From positions 1 through 30,901 of IMG/VR virus record IMGVR_UViG_3300008117_000324: a stretch of DNA of 30,901 nucleotides; one strand, 5' to 3'. Below the pieces are notes generated by a model. The model saw nothing but the letters and a program-made list of their open reading frames with translations. It was not told where the DNA came from and made no database searches. The position numbers and the translations under genes are program-made. Numbering within the stretch: position 1 is the stretch's first letter; the number at the start of each line of letters is the position of its first letter. The DNA is from a virus. Shown in pieces: positions 846 through 25,854 of the stretch.

Positions 846-1850
846 ATGAAAATATTAACACTTACCCAAAAGTTTAGCGGATGCGGCTATCATAGGCTCA
901 TGCTTCCTGTCTCATTTATGCCAAAAGAATATGGCAGGATTACCGATACAATAACAGAAGAGGAACTGGCAGAAAAGAAATATGATATTGTTTTTATAAA
1001 CAGGGTATGGGATAAAGACAATCTTATTGAACTGCGTAAAAAGTATGGTTTTAAATTAGTCGTTGATGTTGACGATTACTGGATATTGAATCATGATCAT
1101 TTGATGTTCGATTCGTTTAATGCTACTGGCTTTGCTTCAAAGCTTATCCATCACATGAGGGAGGCCGACTTAATTACCTGCACTCATGAAAGACTTGCAG
1201 AAGCTATTGCCGTTCACAATCCTAATGTTTTAATAGTACCTAATGCGATCCCTTATAATGAGGGGCAATTTAATGGAGAAAGATATGCGACAGATGCCGT
1301 TAAGTTATTTTGGGCGGGTGGCATTACGCATGATCAGGATTTAAAGATATTGGAGGGGCCGATGAAAAAGGTTAGCGGCAATGTTCAAATGATATTGGGA
1401 GGGTTTTCCGATTCAAATGAAACGGAGCGATATTATTGGGGAAGGATGGCTAACTATTTCACAAATGATAAAAAGTTGCCGCATACTATATTTAGAGGGA
1501 TAGAGGTTTTTAAATATTACGATCTATTTAAGTATGCAGATGTAATGCTTATCCCTTTGGTCAAAAACAACTTTAATAAATACAAGTCTAATATAAAGAT
1601 TTTAGAGGCGGCTGGTAAGGCGGTGCCTGTTATCGTTAGTGCGGTGCATCCTTATTTGGGCTTCCCGGATGATGTAGTTAATTACGTACATGATCGGGCC
1701 GACTGGAATAAGCACATTGATAAGCTTGTAAATGATGAGGGGTTAAGGAATGAGCAGGGGCAAAAACTATTAGAATATTGCAACAAGCATTACAATTTTA
1801 ATGAGATAAATCAAACAAGGCAAAAGGCTTTTGAGCATTTGATTTCATAA
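846..1850 (+). CDS. Phage-encoded glycosyltransferase (GT4/GT-B-like)
   Basis: A 334-residue protein resembling phage-encoded family 4 (GT-B) glycosyltransferases. The N-terminal half has a Rossmann-like start (MKILTLTQKFSGCGYHR) and the DVDDYW motif (residues 74-79) seen in phage members. The C-terminal half carries KSNIKILEAAGKAVPVIVS (about 247-265), which corresponds to the nucleotide-sugar binding segment of GT4 enzymes, followed by PYLGFP. Expected reaction: transfer of a sugar from an activated donor; donor and acceptor are unknown. It sits between the protease and scaffold-like genes, inside the head module rather than in a host-modification region, so a capsid or tail protein acceptor is an attractive inference. 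DNA or host surface glycan remain alternatives. Confidence 0.8.
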   Translation: MKILTLTQKFSGCGYHRLMLPVSFMPKEYGRITDTITEEELAEKKYDIVFINRVWDKDNLIELRKKYGFKLVVDVDDYWILNHDHLMFDSFNATGFASKLIHHMREADLITCTHERLAEAIAVHNPNVLIVPNAIPYNEGQFNGERYATDAVKLFWAGGITHDQDLKILEGPMKKVSGNVQMILGGFSDSNETERYYWGRMANYFTNDKKLPHTIFRGIEVFKYYDLFKYADVMLIPLVKNNFNKYKSNIKILEAAGKAVPVIVSAVHPYLGFPDDVVNYVHDRADWNKHIDKLVNDEGLRNEQGQKLLEYCNKHYNFNEINQTRQKAFEHLIS

Positions 1851-13842: not shown

Positions 13843-16026
13843 TTAAAACAAACTTACCTGAGCCTTTTCACTTATAGCTGCTTTTAAATTAGCTTTTGCC
13901 AAATCATAGTAACTTTCCTTTAATTCAAATCCGATTCCTTTCCTTTCCATTTTAATTGCCTGATAAACTTCACTACCTATACCCATAAAAGGTGTAAATA
14001 CCGTGTCTCCTTTATTTGAATAAAGTAAAATCAATCTTTCAATTGTATCCAATTGCAAAGGACAGATATGCTTTTCATCATTTTCTTCCCGGCCATTGCG
14101 ATAACCTTGCAAGGTATTTGAATAGTTAATATCCATCCATACAGGTGATGCTATCTTCTGCCAAAGATCAACACTTAAATTAGTATTTGTTACAGGATCA
14201 GTTCTTTCGCCATCTTTTCTAAATATCATAACATAGTCAGGAATACCTACTCGGCTCATTGTAGAATCTTTTTTTACTTGTTTATGTAATAGTCCGAGTG
14301 CCTTAGTCCTTTGCATTTCAACTACTGGATCTTTCCAAATAGTCACACGTGAGGCATAAATAAAACCTGCATCTTCAAAGGCTTTTAATATCATTCCTGA
14401 AAAGTCACGAAGTCCGATAAAACCTTCTTTGCCTTTTTGTATTGGAAGATCCATACAATGTACGCATACATTTCGGCCCTGCTTCATAATGCGATAAAGT
14501 TCTTTTATTAAATATCCAAATTGAATCAGGAATTCGTTATAATCTTTTGAATTTCCCATATCTTCAACATGGCTGCTGTATGTATAAAGTTCAGCAAATG
14601 GAGGAGAAAATACACTAAGGCCAACAGATTCAGATTCTATTTCAGATATCAATTGTACGCAATCACCTCGTTTAATTTTATACCATTCATTAGACTCTTC
14701 ATTAATATCATAATTTGCCATTGTCATTTTACTGCCATTAAGATTTTCATTAATAGCATTACTCATTTCATTTTGCATGATTTCAAATGCTTTTTGTTTT
14801 TGGTTTATAGATTCATTTACATTTTTCATTGTATCGGTAGTTATTAAAAAGATATTAACTTCATTCTTTTGCCCAAATCTATATGATCTGCGTATTGCCT
14901 GGTAAAGTCCTTCAAAGCTAAAATCCAATGATGCAAATATTTGATTGCGGCAATTTTGATAATTGAGTCCGAATTGTGCTATTTTGGTTTTTGTTATAAG
15001 TACGCGGAATTCATTATTAGCAAACCCTAATAGCATCTTTTCTTTGTATTCTGGTGAATCAGATCCTTTTACTTCTATTGCCTCAGGAATCAATTTTTTA
15101 AGTAATTCACCTTCCTCATTTTGCTTTATCCAAATAATAAAGTTTTCTTCTGATTCGTTTACAATCTTTGCAGCTTCATCTAATCTTTCAATCTTTGTTA
15201 ATCTTAATTCCTGATTAAAGTTAGTGGCCGATATTATGGCATCATTGAAAAGTAATCCATTATCCCGCTTTTTAGTTTTTATTTCCTTTTCAATAAGATT
15301 CAATGTTGGCAGATTATATCCATCCATTGCAAATCCAATATCGGAAGGTTTATTTAGCATAATTGCCCATGAACCTACAAACTGATAGAATAATTTAATA
15401 GCATGGCCTTTTAATCTCCATTTAGCTGTTTCACCTCCATCATGCACAAAGTACATAGCAAGCATTTCATTACGGCCCATTACATCTAAAAATTCAGAAT
15501 GGTTGCCTAATTCCATCGGATCGTTTGGAGAAGGTGTTGCGGTGCAGGCTAATTTATACGGAGTATCTTTAAACGAATCAATAATCAGTTTTTTTGTTTG
15601 GCCTTCAAAATTTTTAAGGATAGAAGATTCATCCAGAACAATACCTGAAAATATTGAACAATCTATATTTTCAAGTTGTTCATAATTTGATATTTGTATA
15701 GGGGATGTGGCATTATATTTTTCTACGTTAATACCAAACTTGTCGCCTTCCTTTATTGTCTGTCCGGCTACTGCCAAAGGTGCTAATATCAATACAGGCT
15801 TTTCAGTTTTAATAAAAACCTGCCTTGCCCATTCAAGTTGCATCAAAGTTTTACCGAGTCCGCAATCTGCAAATATTGCGTATTTGCCTGCTTTCAATGC
15901 ACGCTTTACAATAAACTTTTGGAAGTCAAATAGGTAGCCATTTAGGGCATCTTCTGAAATTTCGAATCCTGAATTAACATGGGTTTTTTGTTTCCTTTTT
16001 AGGAATTGTAGATAATCTTTGTTCAT
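13843..16026 (-). CDS. SNF2-like helicase fused to DNA methyltransferase
   Basis: A 727-residue two-enzyme protein. Residues 1-420 are a superfamily 2 SNF2-type ATPase: Walker A DCGLGKT (54-60), DESS Walker B (132-135), motif III TATPSPND (162-169) and motif VI QAIRRSYRFGQ (376-386). Residues 450-727 are an N4/N6 amino-methyltransferase: SPPF catalytic motif (474-477) and SAM-binding TPFMGIG (678-684) followed by GIGFELKESYYDLA. The motif order (catalytic before SAM-binding) is that of the beta class. No nuclease domain is seen, so it should modify rather than cut phage or host DNA, possibly with helicase-driven tracking. It is the last large gene of the leftward operon, with a promoter-like element just upstream at 16047-16078. 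Confidence 0.85.
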   Translation of the reverse strand: MNKDYLQFLKRKQKTHVNSGFEISEDALNGYLFDFQKFIVKRALKAGKYAIFADCGLGKTLMQLEWARQVFIKTEKPVLILAPLAVAGQTIKEGDKFGINVEKYNATSPIQISNYEQLENIDCSIFSGIVLDESSILKNFEGQTKKLIIDSFKDTPYKLACTATPSPNDPMELGNHSEFLDVMGRNEMLAMYFVHDGGETAKWRLKGHAIKLFYQFVGSWAIMLNKPSDIGFAMDGYNLPTLNLIEKEIKTKKRDNGLLFNDAIISATNFNQELRLTKIERLDEAAKIVNESEENFIIWIKQNEEGELLKKLIPEAIEVKGSDSPEYKEKMLLGFANNEFRVLITKTKIAQFGLNYQNCRNQIFASLDFSFEGLYQAIRRSYRFGQKNEVNIFLITTDTMKNVNESINQKQKAFEIMQNEMSNAINENLNGSKMTMANYDINEESNEWYKIKRGDCVQLISEIESESVGLSVFSPPFAELYTYSSHVEDMGNSKDYNEFLIQFGYLIKELYRIMKQGRNVCVHCMDLPIQKGKEGFIGLRDFSGMILKAFEDAGFIYASRVTIWKDPVVEMQRTKALGLLHKQVKKDSTMSRVGIPDYVMIFRKDGERTDPVTNTNLSVDLWQKIASPVWMDINYSNTLQGYRNGREENDEKHICPLQLDTIERLILLYSNKGDTVFTPFMGIGSEVYQAIKMERKGIGFELKESYYDLAKANLKAAISEKAQVSLF

Positions 16027-16046: not shown

Positions 16047-16078
16047 CAAATATATGGTTAAAAAGTTATATCGTCAAT
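16047..16078 (-). promoter_or_regulatory. Bacteroidota-type promoter for the helicase-methyltransferase gene
   Basis: On the reverse strand, TATATTTG (16047-16054) matches the Bacteroidota -7 consensus TAnnTTTG. ATTG (16075-16078) stands 20 nt upstream, one base off the -33 TTTG. The predicted start is about 10-20 bases before the ATG at 16026. It lies at the very end of the primase-helicase gene, so it could uncouple the methyltransferase from the operon. Confidence 0.4.
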
Positions 16079-17857
16079 CATACTATATTGAATGTTATTC
16101 TTAGAAAGCAAATTACCCAATACATCAGACCCATTAAAATAATATCTTCTATGCTTTCTATTGTATTCAAATTCAATCTCTCCTTTTTTGCCTACCTGCT
16201 TTTGCCTCCTTATCTTCTTTGAATGAAAACTACAAGTAGGACTGCTGGGATCTTTTTGGTGGTTCGGCCTATGATAAACAATAATATTATCCATTTTGTT
16301 ATTCCACATCGCACCATCTGCCAGATCGAACACATCAGGGCAGGGGTAGTTACCATCAGGCTCTTTTCTCATCTTATGAGGATGCGCTACAATGACAAAA
16401 TAAATACTATTAATTTGAGCAAACCTACTGCAATCGCTTAAAAATGTTTCTAAATACTTATCTGTTCGGCCTCCGCTACTTTGATAATCGTTTGATAATT
16501 GATTGAATGGGTCTATTATGCAGCCATTAACCTTTTCTTTTATTATCAATTCTAAAAATCTTTCTTTTATGTATTCAGGTGTAGGTGCTAATTCTTTTGG
16601 ATATACATAAAAAATATGTTTACTTATAAAGTCATAAGCGGCCTCATATTTCATTTCATTTACGTTAGGAAAGATACATTGTTGGCCTAAATATATCTCA
16701 GTAAGATCATGATAAAATTCTTCTGCCGGGTTATTTTCTGGGCTAAATAAGGCAAACTTTTCTCCGTACTTTATGGCCCTGACCATGATATACCACATGA
16801 GGAAACTGGACTTACCATAATTACCTATTCCAGTAAGGCAGGTAATCTCTCCATGCTTAAATTTAAAATAATCGTCTAATTCGCATTCTATACCCTTTAA
16901 TTTGGCAAATCCGTTGCGTAGTATATCTAAGGCCTGTTCTTTTACATCCTCGCCATAAATGACATCTTTGGGCCTTATGGATAGATCATAAATGGCAGGG
17001 TCTATTTCAACCTCTTTTTTAGTTTTAGTATCGATTAATATATCCCTTTCAAATATAGCAGTATTAAAGTTATTTGATTTGTATGCTGATCTTATTGCTC
17101 GATCTGCTTCATATTTGGCAAAGTTTGAATCAGTTTGGACAAAGTCATTATTTATATAAGTTTCTGTATCTGATTGATTTATACCAAAACGGCAGCATGC
17201 AGATGCAAGCTTAAATATAAATGTGTTTCTTTCTCCACTACGGAAAGCGTCTCCTTTATTTGATAGCCATGTCAATATCTTACGATAAATTTCAGACCTA
17301 TCGCTAATTTGTTCCTGAGCCTTTATTTTCTCATGCTTTACAGTTTTTTTAAAGACTATGGCATCTTTGTTTATATAAATTTCAGGATCATAAGATTCAT
17401 AACATACCCTACTTTCATTCTTTCCGCTTGGGTCTATTTCAGGCATGATCTCTTTTAAGGCTGCAAAGTGTTCTCTGTGATGCTTACCATCTGCAATCTT
17501 AATTAGTGCTTTGAGTCCATTTCCTGAAGGCGAAAGCCAACAAGAGTAAACATAAGGTAGGTTAATTATTTCGGTTTGTTTTTCACGCAAATCTTTTACT
17601 TCATCAAAATCCAATATCATAAATCCTGAATGCTGAATCAAAGATTTATCTTCTCTGTTTGTAAACTTACCTGAGAAACAGATGCACGGTAAATTGTTTT
17701 TCAAACTATTCTTACGGTCCTTATCTAATTGCTTTCTAATCTCTTCAACTGCATCTTTGCTGGTTCCATTCTTTATCCTTGCAAGTGCTTGGTCTACTGT
17801 TAAATAGTGTGCATCCTTTTCTTCTTTAGCCCATATATTACGATATGCTGTTACCAT
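16058..17857 (-). CDS. Replicative primase-helicase (BT4734-like N-terminus)
   Basis: A 599-residue protein. Residues about 50-170 match the BT4734/VirE N-terminal primase-like domain, with acidic motif ILDFDEV (81-87) and SPSGNGLKALIK (109-120). Residues about 185-265 are helical (TWLSNKGDAFRSGERNTFIF) like a primase C-terminal domain. Residues 300-590 are a DnaB/RecA-like helicase: Walker A GIGNYGKS (343-350), Walker B IIDPFNQL (447-454) and VAHPHKMRK (490-498). It should prime and unwind at the replication fork. It overlaps the upstream gene by 7 bases. Confidence 0.85.
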   Translation of the reverse strand: MVTAYRNIWAKEEKDAHYLTVDQALARIKNGTSKDAVEEIRKQLDKDRKNSLKNNLPCICFSGKFTNREDKSLIQHSGFMILDFDEVKDLREKQTEIINLPYVYSCWLSPSGNGLKALIKIADGKHHREHFAALKEIMPEIDPSGKNESRVCYESYDPEIYINKDAIVFKKTVKHEKIKAQEQISDRSEIYRKILTWLSNKGDAFRSGERNTFIFKLASACCRFGINQSDTETYINNDFVQTDSNFAKYEADRAIRSAYKSNNFNTAIFERDILIDTKTKKEVEIDPAIYDLSIRPKDVIYGEDVKEQALDILRNGFAKLKGIECELDDYFKFKHGEITCLTGIGNYGKSSFLMWYIMVRAIKYGEKFALFSPENNPAEEFYHDLTEIYLGQQCIFPNVNEMKYEAAYDFISKHIFYVYPKELAPTPEYIKERFLELIIKEKVNGCIIDPFNQLSNDYQSSGGRTDKYLETFLSDCSRFAQINSIYFVIVAHPHKMRKEPDGNYPCPDVFDLADGAMWNNKMDNIIVYHRPNHQKDPSSPTCSFHSKKIRRQKQVGKKGEIEFEYNRKHRRYYFNGSDVLGNLLSKNNIQYSMIDDITF

Positions 17858-18462: not shown

Positions 18463-18822
18463 TTATTTGCGATTTTTATAATGTGAGTAATATGTCCTAT
18501 CGTGATGACATTGTTTATGGCAGGCTGTACATAATATCAAAATATTATCTGGTTCCCTGGTTCCTCCATCTTTATATTCAATGATATGATGAGCCTCAAG
18601 TGTTCCTGGAGGTGGTATATCTTGCCTATTTCTTAAGCACCATTCACAATAATCAATACCTATTTTCTTTATAATGTCAGAATGTTTTGACTCCCTATTC
18701 TTTGTGCCTTCTTTAGGCTGCCATGTAAATTGTCCGCAATCTTTACATCTTGAAGCGTATTGCTGCCGATCTTCACGATATTCCAAATCAATATTTGGAC
18801 TTTGACATTTCCTACATATCAT
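18463..18822 (-). CDS. HNH endonuclease
   Basis: A 119-residue protein. The N-terminal zinc ribbon has two CxxC pairs (CRKC and CKDC). The HNH core reads LEAHHIIEYKDGG, DNILILCTACHKQCHH, with the His-His, Asn and His positions plus CxxC zinc ligands (CEWC, CTAC). It is a compact phage HNH nuclease; it may be a free-standing homing endonuclease or take part in replication or packaging. It lies 3 bases upstream of the DUF6291-like gene, so it is cotranscribed. A 99-base structured gap lies on its 5' side. Confidence 0.85.
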   Translation of the reverse strand: MICRKCQSPNIDLEYREDRQQYASRCKDCGQFTWQPKEGTKNRESKHSDIIKKIGIDYCEWCLRNRQDIPPPGTLEAHHIIEYKDGGTREPDNILILCTACHKQCHHDRTYYSHYKNRK

Positions 18823-19243: not shown

Positions 19244-19513
19244 TTATTGGTTATAAAATTTATCGAATATCGCTTCAGCAAAAGCATCATAATCTTCTGT
19301 CGTTCTAATCGATCCATCTTTATTTTCGTAATGCATGACATACTTTAACATCTCAACCATTTGATACTTATGATAGATTTTAGCTAACTTAAATTCATCT
19401 TTAATTACGTTTTGTAAATCTTTATGTGTCATAAACTTAGGCATTTTACTATGTTCATAAATTAATCCTTCAATTTGCCTTTCTAAATAATCAATAATGT
19501 TTACTTCTCTCAT
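19244..19513 (-). CDS. Hypothetical early protein
   Basis: An 89-residue helical protein (MREVNIIDYLERQIEGLIYE; ends DAFAEAIFDKFYNQ). Its leader CCAAATCAAATG matches that of the downstream gene. It overlaps the upstream nuclease gene by 4 bases (ATGA type). No recognised domain. Confidence 0.6.
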   Translation of the reverse strand: MREVNIIDYLERQIEGLIYEHSKMPKFMTHKDLQNVIKDEFKLAKIYHKYQMVEMLKYVMHYENKDGSIRTTEDYDAFAEAIFDKFYNQ

Positions 19514-19902
19514 TTGATTTGGTTTTGTTTGTTAAAATATTCGTCAATTACTGATTTACAATGATCAAAGCCACATCCAAAGATCGCAGCATATCCCAAC
19601 CTTTCCAATTCTTTAAGCGTTTCATGTTGTTCCTGAATGTGCTTATTTTTTTTAAAAGTACCTGACTTAGTCAATATTTGAGACAGATCCTTTTTAATCT
19701 CAATAATCAATCCATGATAAAGCCTATTTGGGTGCATTATAATAAGGTCGGGTATCTTGTAACCTTTACAACGGATAGCCTTTAAAGCCTTTGCCATTCC
19801 GATACTTACACGAACGCCTGAAGAGTCGGAAGTGTAAATGACTTTTGGATATTGAATATCCAAGTACCTGCAAACTTGCGAATGTATCTGCTTTTCAGTC
19901 AT
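19510..19902 (-). CDS. VRR-NUC-like nuclease
   Basis: A 130-residue protein from ATG 19902, which overlaps the upstream stop by 8 bases; longer starts would run far into the DnaA-like gene. The sequence follows the VRR-NUC family of PD-(D/E)xK nucleases: KQIHSQVCRYLDIQYPKVIY, SSGVRVSIGMAKALK, PDLIIMHP, then GLIIEIKKD with the E-x-K catalytic pair, and the closing GYAAIFGCGFDHCKSVIDEY. Such phage nucleases usually act on branched or structured DNA in replication and recombination. The gene lies in the replication operon. Confidence 0.75.
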   Translation of the reverse strand: MTEKQIHSQVCRYLDIQYPKVIYTSDSSGVRVSIGMAKALKAIRCKGYKIPDLIIMHPNRLYHGLIIEIKKDLSQILTKSGTFKKNKHIQEQHETLKELERLGYAAIFGCGFDHCKSVIDEYFNKQNQIK

Positions 19903-20311
19903 TTTTGAATCTTGAATGTTCGGGTAAATTGTGTGAAATCTTATATCTTTTGACATAATGAAGTACGCTGGTATGATCTCGATTAAGATACTTAGCCATA
20001 GAAGTAAGTGTTGCATTATGCTCAAATCTCATGTATCTGCAAAAATGAACCCTTGCCATAACCAAGTTCCAATACCTTTCTTTGCCTTTAAACTTTTCGA
20101 GGGTTATGCCATAAAACTCACATATTGCTTTAGCATATTTATCGTATTCAGATTCACTAATTAATCTGCCTGCCTGGTAAGATTTAAGATTCGCTTTCAG
20201 GACTTCGGCTTCATATTCTTTTAGTTTATCAACGAGTACGTTATGAGTCAATGGCATAATCTCTACTTCAAGCGCACTACCGATAAAATCTATCAGTTCG
20301 TTTCTTTGCAT
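19895..20311 (-). CDS. DnaA domain IV-like replication protein
   Basis: A 138-residue protein. Residues about 85-130 (MARVHFCRYMRFEHNATLTS, MAKYLNRDHTSVLHYVKRYK) match the DNA-binding domain IV of DnaA, including the RDHTSVLH signature that reads DnaA-box DNA. The ATPase domain of DnaA is absent. The first 80 residues are helical and unrecognised. It probably recognises the phage origin or recruits host machinery; it overlaps the downstream nuclease by 8 bases. Confidence 0.75.
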   Translation of the reverse strand: MQRNELIDFIGSALEVEIMPLTHNVLVDKLKEYEAEVLKANLKSYQAGRLISESEYDKYAKAICEFYGITLEKFKGKERYWNLVMARVHFCRYMRFEHNATLTSMAKYLNRDHTSVLHYVKRYKISHNLPEHSRFKND

Positions 20312-22400: not shown

Positions 22401-22430
22401 AATTTTAGGTTTGTGTGAATAATTATAGAG

Positions 22431-22461
22431 CAAATATAAACCTTTTTTTCACAATTCCAAA
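22431..22461 (-). promoter_or_regulatory. Bacteroidota consensus promoter of the leftward early operon
   Basis: On the reverse strand TTTG (22458-22461) and TATATTTG (22431-22438) are separated by 19 nt, an exact match to the Bacteroidota -33/-7 consensus (TTTG, TAnnTTTG). Transcription should start near 22424 and read the whole replication block leftward. It is therefore expected to be served by the host housekeeping sigma factor. Confidence 0.75.
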
Positions 22462-23639: not shown

Positions 23640-23884
23640 TAACATTGGAAACGAATATCCCGGAAATTAGCCAATACGCTAAGAATCGAGAAAAGTTTAT
23701 CGCTTTGCAACAGTATTGGGCAACGGTTAAATTAGGGTATTTAAAGAGTTTAGATGCCTCAATTAAATTTGAGATTGAGCGTATTTATAGAGAGGAATTA
23801 GATCAAAAGTGGCTGCCGAATCGTTATTGCTCTGGTTGTTACTTTAAAGCTATTCAGGATTTAATATATCATTTCATTTTATGA
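23618..23884 (+). CDS. Hypothetical protein
   Basis: An 88-residue basic protein (MGRPKKIVTLETNIPEISQY; CSGCYFKAIQDLIYHFIL at the end). ATG 23618 was chosen because an upstream frame is only a shadow of the membrane gene. The N-terminal GRPKK is an AT-hook-like patch and the C-terminus has a CxxC pair. It overlaps the previous gene by 22 bases and the methyltransferase by 4. Function unknown. Confidence 0.6.
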   Translation: MGRPKKIVTLETNIPEISQYAKNREKFIALQQYWATVKLGYLKSLDASIKFEIERIYREELDQKWLPNRYCSGCYFKAIQDLIYHFIL

Positions 23885-24438
23885 GTTTACCAATACAGGA
23901 TACAATGATCAGCGAAGATCTGTTTTTGAAAACGGAACTTGATGCCGGTATACATCATGACAATGAAGCTTTTGTACATCTTTGTCATGCAACGGCTCAA
24001 GAGGTCAAAGGCTTAGATATTAAAACTGTAATGGACTACGGATGTGGAACAGGTGTTTATTCTTATGCTTTCATTAACGAAGGCTTTGACGTTGTAGCAT
24101 GGGAAAAGTTTAAAGCACATAAAGATTATTTATCCGAAAAATTGCCACAAATTAAGATAATAGACAAGCCTATCACTACCGATTTAATGTTATTTATCGA
24201 AGTGGCAGAACACATGACCGATAAAGAACTGGATAAGTTATTTAAAAGTATATCTCCAAAGTACATACTTTTTTCATCAACAAGCGAACGGACAGCGTGG
24301 GACTTAGCATGGGGGCATATCAATGTCAAAGAACAGAATGAATGGGTTACATTCTTTGAAAGTAAAGGATATAAGTTAGTGAAAGATATTAAAGTGCCGA
24401 CAGAGTGGTCAAAATTATTTCAATATGCCAACAGTTAA
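23881..24438 (+). CDS. Class I SAM-dependent methyltransferase
   Basis: A 185-residue protein. Residues about 50-62 carry SAM-binding motif I (VMDYGCGTGVYSYAF). An acidic residue ends the second strand (VVAWEKF), LMLFIEVAEHM follows as motif IV, and YILFSSTSERTAWD as a later strand. The family acts on small molecules, proteins or RNA; no DNA-type catalytic motif is seen. The closing GHINVKEQNEWVTFFESKGY pattern is usual for phage copies placed beside ParB-like genes. The substrate is unknown. Confidence 0.75.
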   Translation: MSLPIQDTMISEDLFLKTELDAGIHHDNEAFVHLCHATAQEVKGLDIKTVMDYGCGTGVYSYAFINEGFDVVAWEKFKAHKDYLSEKLPQIKIIDKPITTDLMLFIEVAEHMTDKELDKLFKSISPKYILFSSTSERTAWDLAWGHINVKEQNEWVTFFESKGYKLVKDIKVPTEWSKLFQYANS

Positions 24439-25030
24439 GATAAACCAAATTAAACCTAATCCTAAGAATCCACGAACGATTAAGGATGAACGTTTTGATA
24501 AACTTAAGAAAAGCATTCAGGATTTCCCGGATATGCTTAACAAACGCCCGCTGGTTTGCTTTACCGATACCGACGGCAAATTTGTTGTATTGGGTGGTAA
24601 TATGCGACTCAAAGCAGCGAAGGATTTAGGATTGAAAGAATTACCCATAATCCTTGCCGATGAATGGACTGAAGAACAAAAGGCGGAGTTTCTTATCAAA
24701 GATAACGTCGGCTTCGGTGAGTGGGATTGGAACGAATTAAATACCGATTGGGATACTGAACAGCTGGAGGGGTGGGGGTTGGAGGTGCCGGGGTTTAATA
24801 TGAATGCCGATGGTTTAGGAACTGATTTTACTTTGCCTGGTGGAGATAAAGCACCATTTCAGCAAATGACTTTTACTTTGGCAGATGAACAGGCGGAGCA
24901 GATTAAAAATGCTATTTCGGATATAAAGGAAACGCAAGAGTATAAGTATGCTGAAACAATGGGCAACGAGAACTCAAACGGAAACGCTTTATATTTAATT
25001 ATCATGCAATGGGTAGAGCAAAAGAAATAA
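24425..25030 (+). CDS. ParB/Srx-fold nuclease-like protein
   Basis: A 201-residue protein. Residues 1-90 match the ParB N-terminal domain: KINQIKPNPKNPRTIKDERF, LVCFTDTDGKFVVLGGNMRL and KAAKDLGLKELPI. Gly-Gly-Asn-Met-Arg is the nucleotide-binding motif. The C-terminal part (QMTFTLADEQAEQIKNAISD, MGNENSNGNALYLIIMQW) is an extension seen in phage members. Phage ParB-like proteins of this type accompany DNA modification and terminase genes and may be CTPases or nucleases. It overlaps neighbours by 14 and 22 bases, so coupling to the Mom-like gene is likely. Confidence 0.8.
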   Translation: MPTVKINQIKPNPKNPRTIKDERFDKLKKSIQDFPDMLNKRPLVCFTDTDGKFVVLGGNMRLKAAKDLGLKELPIILADEWTEEQKAEFLIKDNVGFGEWDWNELNTDWDTEQLEGWGLEVPGFNMNADGLGTDFTLPGGDKAPFQQMTFTLADEQAEQIKNAISDIKETQEYKYAETMGNENSNGNALYLIIMQWVEQKK

Positions 25031-25854
25031 TAGTAAAAGTTATTCCAGCAAAAATTGCAAATGAATTTGTAAAGCTTCATCATTATTCAGGTAAAGTTGT
25101 TCCAAATAGTAAACTTCATTTTGGATGTTTTTTAGATGATAAATTGCACGGAGTATTAAGCTATGGTTCAAGTTTAGATAAAAGTAAAACTATTGGGTTA
25201 GTTGAAAATACAAATTGGAACGATTATTTAGAATTAAATAGAATGGCATTTGATAATTATTTGCCAAAATATTCAGAAAGTAGATGTATTTCAATTTGTA
25301 TTAAATTAATCAAAAAAAATGCTCCAAATATAAAATGGATTTTGTCTTATTCTGATGGATGTGATTGTGGAGATGGAACAATTTATAGAGCAAGTGGATT
25401 TTATTTAACTTTAATTAAAGAAAATAGTGATTTATTTTTACTTCCAAATGGTAAAAAAATACACTCAATGACTATAAAATCAAGTAAAACATTAATGAAT
25501 AAATATGGTAACTGGAAAAAATATCTTGATACTGAACATATTGGATGGAAAAAAATAGTTGGTTTCCAATTAAGATATATTTATTTAATAGATAAAACTT
25601 GTAAAATAACAGTTCCAATTTTACCATTTAGCAAAATAGATGAAATGGGTGCAGGTATGTATAAAGGAAAAAAAGTAACTTTGAAAGAGCGTAAACATGC
25701 GGCAATAGCACAAGGTAGTGCGCCCGGCTTCCAGTCGGGAGATGGCGTTCGGAGCGACCTTGCCGCTCAATTAAACAGCGAAGTAACAGCGAAGCGGAAA
25801 CCCGAACGGGCGACCTCGCAAGATTGTATCTTTGCTGAAGGATCAGGGTTATAA
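25009..25854 (+). CDS. Mom-like DNA modification protein
   Basis: A 281-residue protein. Residues 1-225 resemble the Mu Mom family (GNAT-related, adds a bulky group to adenine in phage DNA): HHYSG (24-28), FGCFLDDKLHGVLSYG, ELNRMAFD (75-82), SRCISICIKLIKK, ILSYSDG (111-117) and GTIYRASGFYL (123-133). In Mu the modification blocks host restriction. The region up to base 25698 is AT-rich and has protein-like sequence throughout. The final 51 residues (from about 231) are read from a GC-rich tRNA-like element and its downstream spacer and do not look like a domain. The annotated end may therefore be a read-through. Strong neighbours are the ParB-like gene before it and terminase after it. Confidence 0.75.
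   Translation: MGRAKEIIVKVIPAKIANEFVKLHHYSGKVVPNSKLHFGCFLDDKLHGVLSYGSSLDKSKTIGLVENTNWNDYLELNRMAFDNYLPKYSESRCISICIKLIKKNAPNIKWILSYSDGCDCGDGTIYRASGFYLTLIKENSDLFLLPNGKKIHSMTIKSSKTLMNKYGNWKKYLDTEHIGWKKIVGFQLRYIYLIDKTCKITVPILPFSKIDEMGAGMYKGKKVTLKERKHAAIAQGSAPGFQSGDGVRSDLAAQLNSEVTAKRKPERATSQDCIFAEGSGL
25699..25767 (+). tRNA. tRNA-Gly(UCC)-like cloverleaf inside the Mom-like gene
   Basis: The segment folds as a tRNA. The 7-bp acceptor stem pairs GCGGCAA (25699-25705) with TTGCCGC (25760-25766). Bases 8-9 are TA. The D stem GCAC/GTGC (25708-25711, 25718-25721) encloses a short 6-nt loop containing GG. The 5-bp anticodon stem (25723-25727 with 25735-25739) carries loop CTTCCAG, which gives U33, anticodon UCC and A37. 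The T arm is poor: loop TTCGGAG at 25748-25754 has TTC but no A58, and the stem has a bulge. No CCA is encoded. The acceptor, D and anticodon arms are convincing; the T arm suggests a degenerate tRNA or a tRNA mimic. It lies in the Mom reading frame. Confidence 0.5.

Follow-up and report, generated by a model that had tools for sequence, protein, structure and literature searches.

The stretch of DNA analysed here (the window) comprises bases 1-30901 of a 34,393-base IMG/VR virus record. Pfam and PHROG searches of the window identify portal, large terminase, endolysin, Erf and SSB genes, which confirm a tailed phage. Its host is likely a member of the Bacteroidota, because the relatives of the helicase-methyltransferase described below that lie in genome contigs are mostly from this group. 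The gene in question occupies positions 13843-16026 of the minus strand, stop codon included, and consists of an open reading frame with an ATG start and zero internal stops encoding a chain of 727 amino acids. Three Pfam models match this chain above their curated cut-offs: SNF2-rel_dom (E=7e-6), Helicase_C (E=1.8e-7) and N6_N4_Mtase (E=2e-21). A preliminary description had proposed that an SNF2 ATPase and an amino-methyltransferase are joined in one polypeptide at this locus, and both the domains and their intact motifs, which we read directly from the translation and verified in window coordinates, bear this out.

The N-terminal part (residues 1-435; 14722-16026, minus strand) forms two RecA lobes and is assigned to the SNF2-type ATPases by Pfam, by a profile match to SNF2/Rad54 (1z63) and by an AlphaFold model (mean pLDDT 80.9), in which Foldseek relates the motor to SNF2 remodellers. 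It carries the SF2 motifs I, II, III and VI: the Walker A sequence GLGKT (residues 56-60; 15847-15861), DESS (132-135; 15622-15633), TATPSPND (162-169; 15520-15543) and QAIRRSYRFGQ with the arginine finger (376-386; 14869-14901), all on the minus strand. The C-terminal part (residues 448-720; 13867-14685, same strand) resembles the methylase TTHA0409 (2zie/2zig) in sequence and fold. It shows the features of a class-beta amino-methyltransferase (PF01555), with the order IV - TRD-like - X/I, an SPP[FY]-type motif IV (SPPF; residues 474-477; 14596-14607) and an FxGxG-type, SAM-binding motif I (PFMGIGSE; 679-686; 13969-13992). Pfam found no nuclease domain in the chain.

Promoter region and upstream gene

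Twenty bases before the ATG lies a Bacteroidota-type -7 box, TATATTTG (16047-16054, minus strand), corresponding to the consensus TAnnTTTG (PMC9723704). The consensus alone means little, because the window contains 47 copies where 43 are expected, and the pattern TTG-N18-22-TAnnTTTG is likewise at about chance frequency (6 seen, about 6 expected). Support for the box comes instead from its conserved position, which is 20-23 bases from the ATG in each of nine close relatives, and from the presence of TAnnTTTG in the 80 bases that precede the gene in 20 of 77 relatives, which are not independent of one another, compared with 6% of random stretches. The upstream gene differs in these close relatives where it was checked, encoding a DnaB-type helicase where it was read; in the window it encodes a primase-helicase-like fusion (BT4734-like N-terminal part plus PriCT_1 by Pfam and PHROG; 16058-17857, minus strand). 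This exchange has left both the helicase-methyltransferase gene and the bases TATATTTGTAAACC in place. Bacteroidota sigma-A promoters combine the -7 box with a -33 TTTG or TTG, and the ATTG at 16075-16078 (minus strand), previously proposed to fill the latter role, is probably not such an element: it is unique to the window, and no conserved -33 box was found among the close relatives. The proposal that the gene has its own promoter is thus half supported, by a candidate -7 box.

Elsewhere in the window, the stretch 22406-22460, located between the two gene blocks of opposite direction (leftward and rightward), has candidate -7/-33 boxes on both strands (minus 22460/22438, plus 22406) and is possibly a divergent promoter region.

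The helicase-methyltransferase family and related systems

The window protein matches phrog_16 ('DNA helicase') across both domains (residues 32-727 against profile positions 273-922 of 986, E=3.8e-77), and shares with this family its phage origin and its arrangement of N-terminal helicase and C-terminal methyltransferase. Matches were found in 446 phage records, 304 of them over at least 80% of its length, from phages of Flavobacterium, Mycobacterium, Arthrobacter, Synechococcus, Pseudomonas and others, as well as in hundreds of viral contigs; plasmids yield few matches (33 records, 8 of them over at least 80%). Some phage members are already annotated 'DNA helicase/methyltransferase', and the wide coupling of SWI2/SNF2 ATPases to phage methyltransferases, in one polypeptide or one neighbourhood, is in print together with the proposal of translocation-coupled methylation against restriction (Iyer et al. 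2017, PMC5512222). The family is therefore phage-borne, large and already annotated, and the window protein is not the new kind of protein that the preliminary description had implied.

Two subfamilies can be distinguished. The A-type comprises the proteins of the window, FCV-3, S-CBS3, Pan4, Moonbeam and hattifnatt; the B-type, with those of RadFad, CF126a, Pan5, FCL-2 and Pacc40, has TSIPF at motif IV and a recognition region longer by about 70 residues. Most members have both domains in one chain; in Moonbeam, Pan4, hattifnatt and three further records (L261, L270, L272), two neighbouring genes encode them. Flavobacterium phage FCV-3 (ASD51632) and Synechococcus phage S-CBS3 (gp40, 'DNA methylase') encode single-chain A-type proteins, respectively 54% and 46% identical to the window protein end to end, which differ from it by sequence divergence only, although their neighbouring genes are different. 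RadFad gp80 (Arthrobacter), Pacc40 gp60 (Mycobacterium) and FCL-2 gp51 ('DNA methylase N-4') match it over the whole length with identical domain content and order, and likewise sit in replication modules and lack a nuclease in the chain; they are about 840 residues long and have the B-type motif IV and recognition region, and the Pacc40 protein carries an additional insertion. Pacc40 gp60 has been described as a helicase plus methylase (PMC11855218) and belongs to the window family by BLASTP; a common family with the ShiLan and Dorothy methylases (PMC9957025) is not supported, as gp60 sits in another pham (PMC11855218). An apparent insertion or intein in one relative (L252) proved to be a separate upstream methyltransferase. 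Among individual members, the B-type protein of Pan5 (L087:6001-8550), annotated 'EcoP15I modification subunit', has its Walker A altered to GLHKT, so that its motor may be inactive, and a Bacteroides sp. MAG (L269:8001-10189) shows an apparent frameshift near residue 90.

Other systems unite the same activities in different arrangements. DarB of phage P1 and the SWI2/SNF2-MTase-LPD36 polyvalent module (PMC5512222) likewise combine a phage SNF2-type ATPase with an amino-methyltransferase and have an anti-restriction role. DarB is needed for resistance to EcoB and EcoK (PMC5512222, PMC11109961), although its role has been questioned because plasmid effects did not require the protein (PMC11109961). 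DarB, however, is a virion protein of 2255 residues and adenine type, with the methyltransferase before the helicase and an LPD36 domain, whereas in the window protein Pfam places the helicase first and finds no extra domain, residues 1-447 holding only the motor. Type I, III and ISP restriction enzymes also pair an SF2 motor with a methyltransferase. Descent from such a system by loss of the nuclease, as suggested earlier, is rejected, because the chain has neither nuclease domain nor specificity subunit, no conserved nuclease partner accompanies it among the neighbour families listed, and its nearest relatives are phage orphan helicase-methyltransferases, with no nearer match among restriction enzymes. 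The eukaryotic DNMT5 of fungi and algae, too, is a single polypeptide with both methyltransferase and SNF2 ATPase, but its methyltransferase comes first and is a C5-cytosine enzyme, of another class than that of the window protein.

Selection, co-inheritance and predicted target base

Across 78 close sequences the motor motifs and methyltransferase motifs IV and I are completely or nearly conserved, with GLGKT, DESS, TATPSPND and SPPF invariant, and median dN/dS values (helicase 0.095, methyltransferase 0.094, recognition-like region 0.071, linker 0.283) reveal purifying selection. Given invariant catalytic residues and a dN/dS near 0.09, the enzyme is very probably functional. That it should be a relic devoid of activity, as the damaged copies in L269 and Pan5 might suggest, is scarcely credible in view of the same data, such damage being confined to single members. 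Helicase and methyltransferase distances are strongly correlated over 63 sequences (Mantel r=0.965), but the correlation falls to 0.28 among the 29 closest, where supported splits conflict; the two domains have thus been inherited together over the long term, in what appears to be an ancient partnership with local recombination within the gene.

Our literature search found no direct methylation assay or methylation activity for this family, and the target base can be approached through sequence and fold. The best named viral Foldseek matches of the methyltransferase part are the Pandoravirus dulcis N4-cytosine methyltransferases S4VS49 and S4VR68, and Pandoravirus SMRT methylomes are m4C (PMC7253447). 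Together with the motif IV sequence SPPF, which alone is no proof of m4C specificity, these matches indicate that the target is probably N4-cytosine rather than N6-adenine. No part of the protein is better conserved than the recognition-like region (residues 531-640), which shares 58-68% identity with its counterparts in a cyanophage, a Pseudanabaena phage and a Flavobacterium phage. Such conservation is surprising for an enzyme that would have to match, in every phage, the restriction specificity of the particular host. Since this region is nearly fixed across phages of Bacteroidota and cyanobacteria, A-type proteins might be ATP-driven methyltransferases of low specificity that mark replicated DNA processively, and not at the restriction site of one host, with A and B versions swapped according to host genotype; we regard this variant as unlikely.

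Genomic context, exchange between phages and probable role

In about 49 A-type representatives, the genes nearby encode proteins of replication and recombination (NinG, YqaJ and DnaB among them); the single most frequent neighbour, with 9 of 128, is a further orphan C5-cytosine methyltransferase, and VRR-NUC adjoins the gene in at least one case; 25 of the 41 neighbour families were listed. The earlier statement that no nuclease accompanies the protein is true of the chain and of the genes directly beside it, yet the same leftward operon of the window also contains genes for an HNH protein (18463-18822) and for a small protein with a weak endonuclease-family PHROG match (19510-20025, minus strand). 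The latter has a PDLIIMHPN...HGLIIEIKK pattern of PD-(D/E)XK nuclease-like look; an identity as VRR-NUC found no support from Pfam VRR_NUC or from BLAST against the phiSa2 VRR-NUC. With either of these proteins as the separately encoded nuclease, the helicase-methyltransferase could supply the modification function of a restriction or superinfection-exclusion system, a reading with precedents in Moonbeam and Pacc40, where an HNH gene directly precedes the helicase, and in staphylococcal phages, where VRR-NUC adjoins helicase-only SNF2 relatives. We consider it very unlikely. The window HNH protein shares with its actinophage counterparts only a match limited to a motif of 32-39 residues, for which it was rejected as a partner, its relatives occur at only four of the other loci compared, and among the 25 of 41 neighbour families listed the only nucleases that recur beside the gene are recombination enzymes.

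Linkage to replication genes could mean that the protein is mainly a replication or recombination motor, whose methyl mark would label new genomes for the timing of replication, packaging or recombination and not for protection. The gene follows a DnaB-type helicase or primase-helicase in the close group of the window, and sits among Erf, SSB, NinG, YqaJ and RusA-type genes, and both the helicase-only relatives of staphylococcal phages and the high conservation of the recognition region would suit such a function. Against it, the gene remains recognisably the same where adjacent replication genes have been exchanged, and two versions with only about 32% identity substitute for each other in nearly identical phages, so that it does not appear tightly fitted to one replisome; we judge this alternative rather unlikely.

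This substitution is seen at one locus in near-identical Flavobacterium columnare phages (Ficleduovirus) of different host groups (L001, L091, L276-L278). FCOV-F27 carries the A-type gene, and FCL-2 and FCOV-S1 carry the B-type gene, the two being 32% identical, while the flanking proteins are 97-98% identical (measured for FCV-3 against FCOV-F15). The phages infect host groups C (FCOV-F27), G (FCL-2) and A (FCOV-S1) (PMC8388691). At a level of at least 80% identity, 66 of the 75 FCOV-F27 genes are shared with FCOV-S1 and 61 with FCL-2, and the helicase-methyltransferase belongs to the small set divergent in both. Others that differ include genes for a PIF1-like helicase and for a hexapeptide transferase; an HNH gene differs in FCL-2 only. 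The association of version with host group is a correlation over three groups, and host range could depend on the 8-13 other differing genes. This host-linked exchange is the most useful addition of the present work: near-identical phages with different helicase-methyltransferases and host groups provide a ready natural test, making directly testable the function of a family that occurs in hundreds of sequenced phages.

The explanation we favour, and hold to be reasonably probable, is that an SNF2-type dsDNA translocase coupled to a class-beta amino-methyltransferase marks phage DNA against host restriction. The protein would be made together with the replication module, its motor would spend ATP to move along phage DNA or remodel access to it, the C-terminal domain would methylate that DNA, and the replicated, methylated genomes would resist host restriction enzymes. 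The preliminary description had named protection of phage DNA and remodelling of host methylation as possible functions, of which the former is the better supported. Methylation of the host chromosome with consequent changes in host gene expression seems highly doubtful; an active orphan methyltransferase would presumably also meet host DNA in the cell, but nothing found points to such a role, and in most relatives the gene lies in replication modules and not beside regulatory genes.

Supporting clues for protection come from the match between Ficleduovirus version and host group and from a Mom-family DNA modification protein (25009-25854, plus strand; PF25680, E=7.1e-51), encoded just upstream of the large terminase gene, which would be the second DNA-modification gene of this phage and is present also in the records of two relatives (L009 and L080). 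The window further encodes a Methyltransf_23-type methyltransferase near the Mom gene (23881-24438, plus strand) and, in the structural region, a glycosyltransferase (846-1850, plus strand; phrog_7162, E=7e-67).
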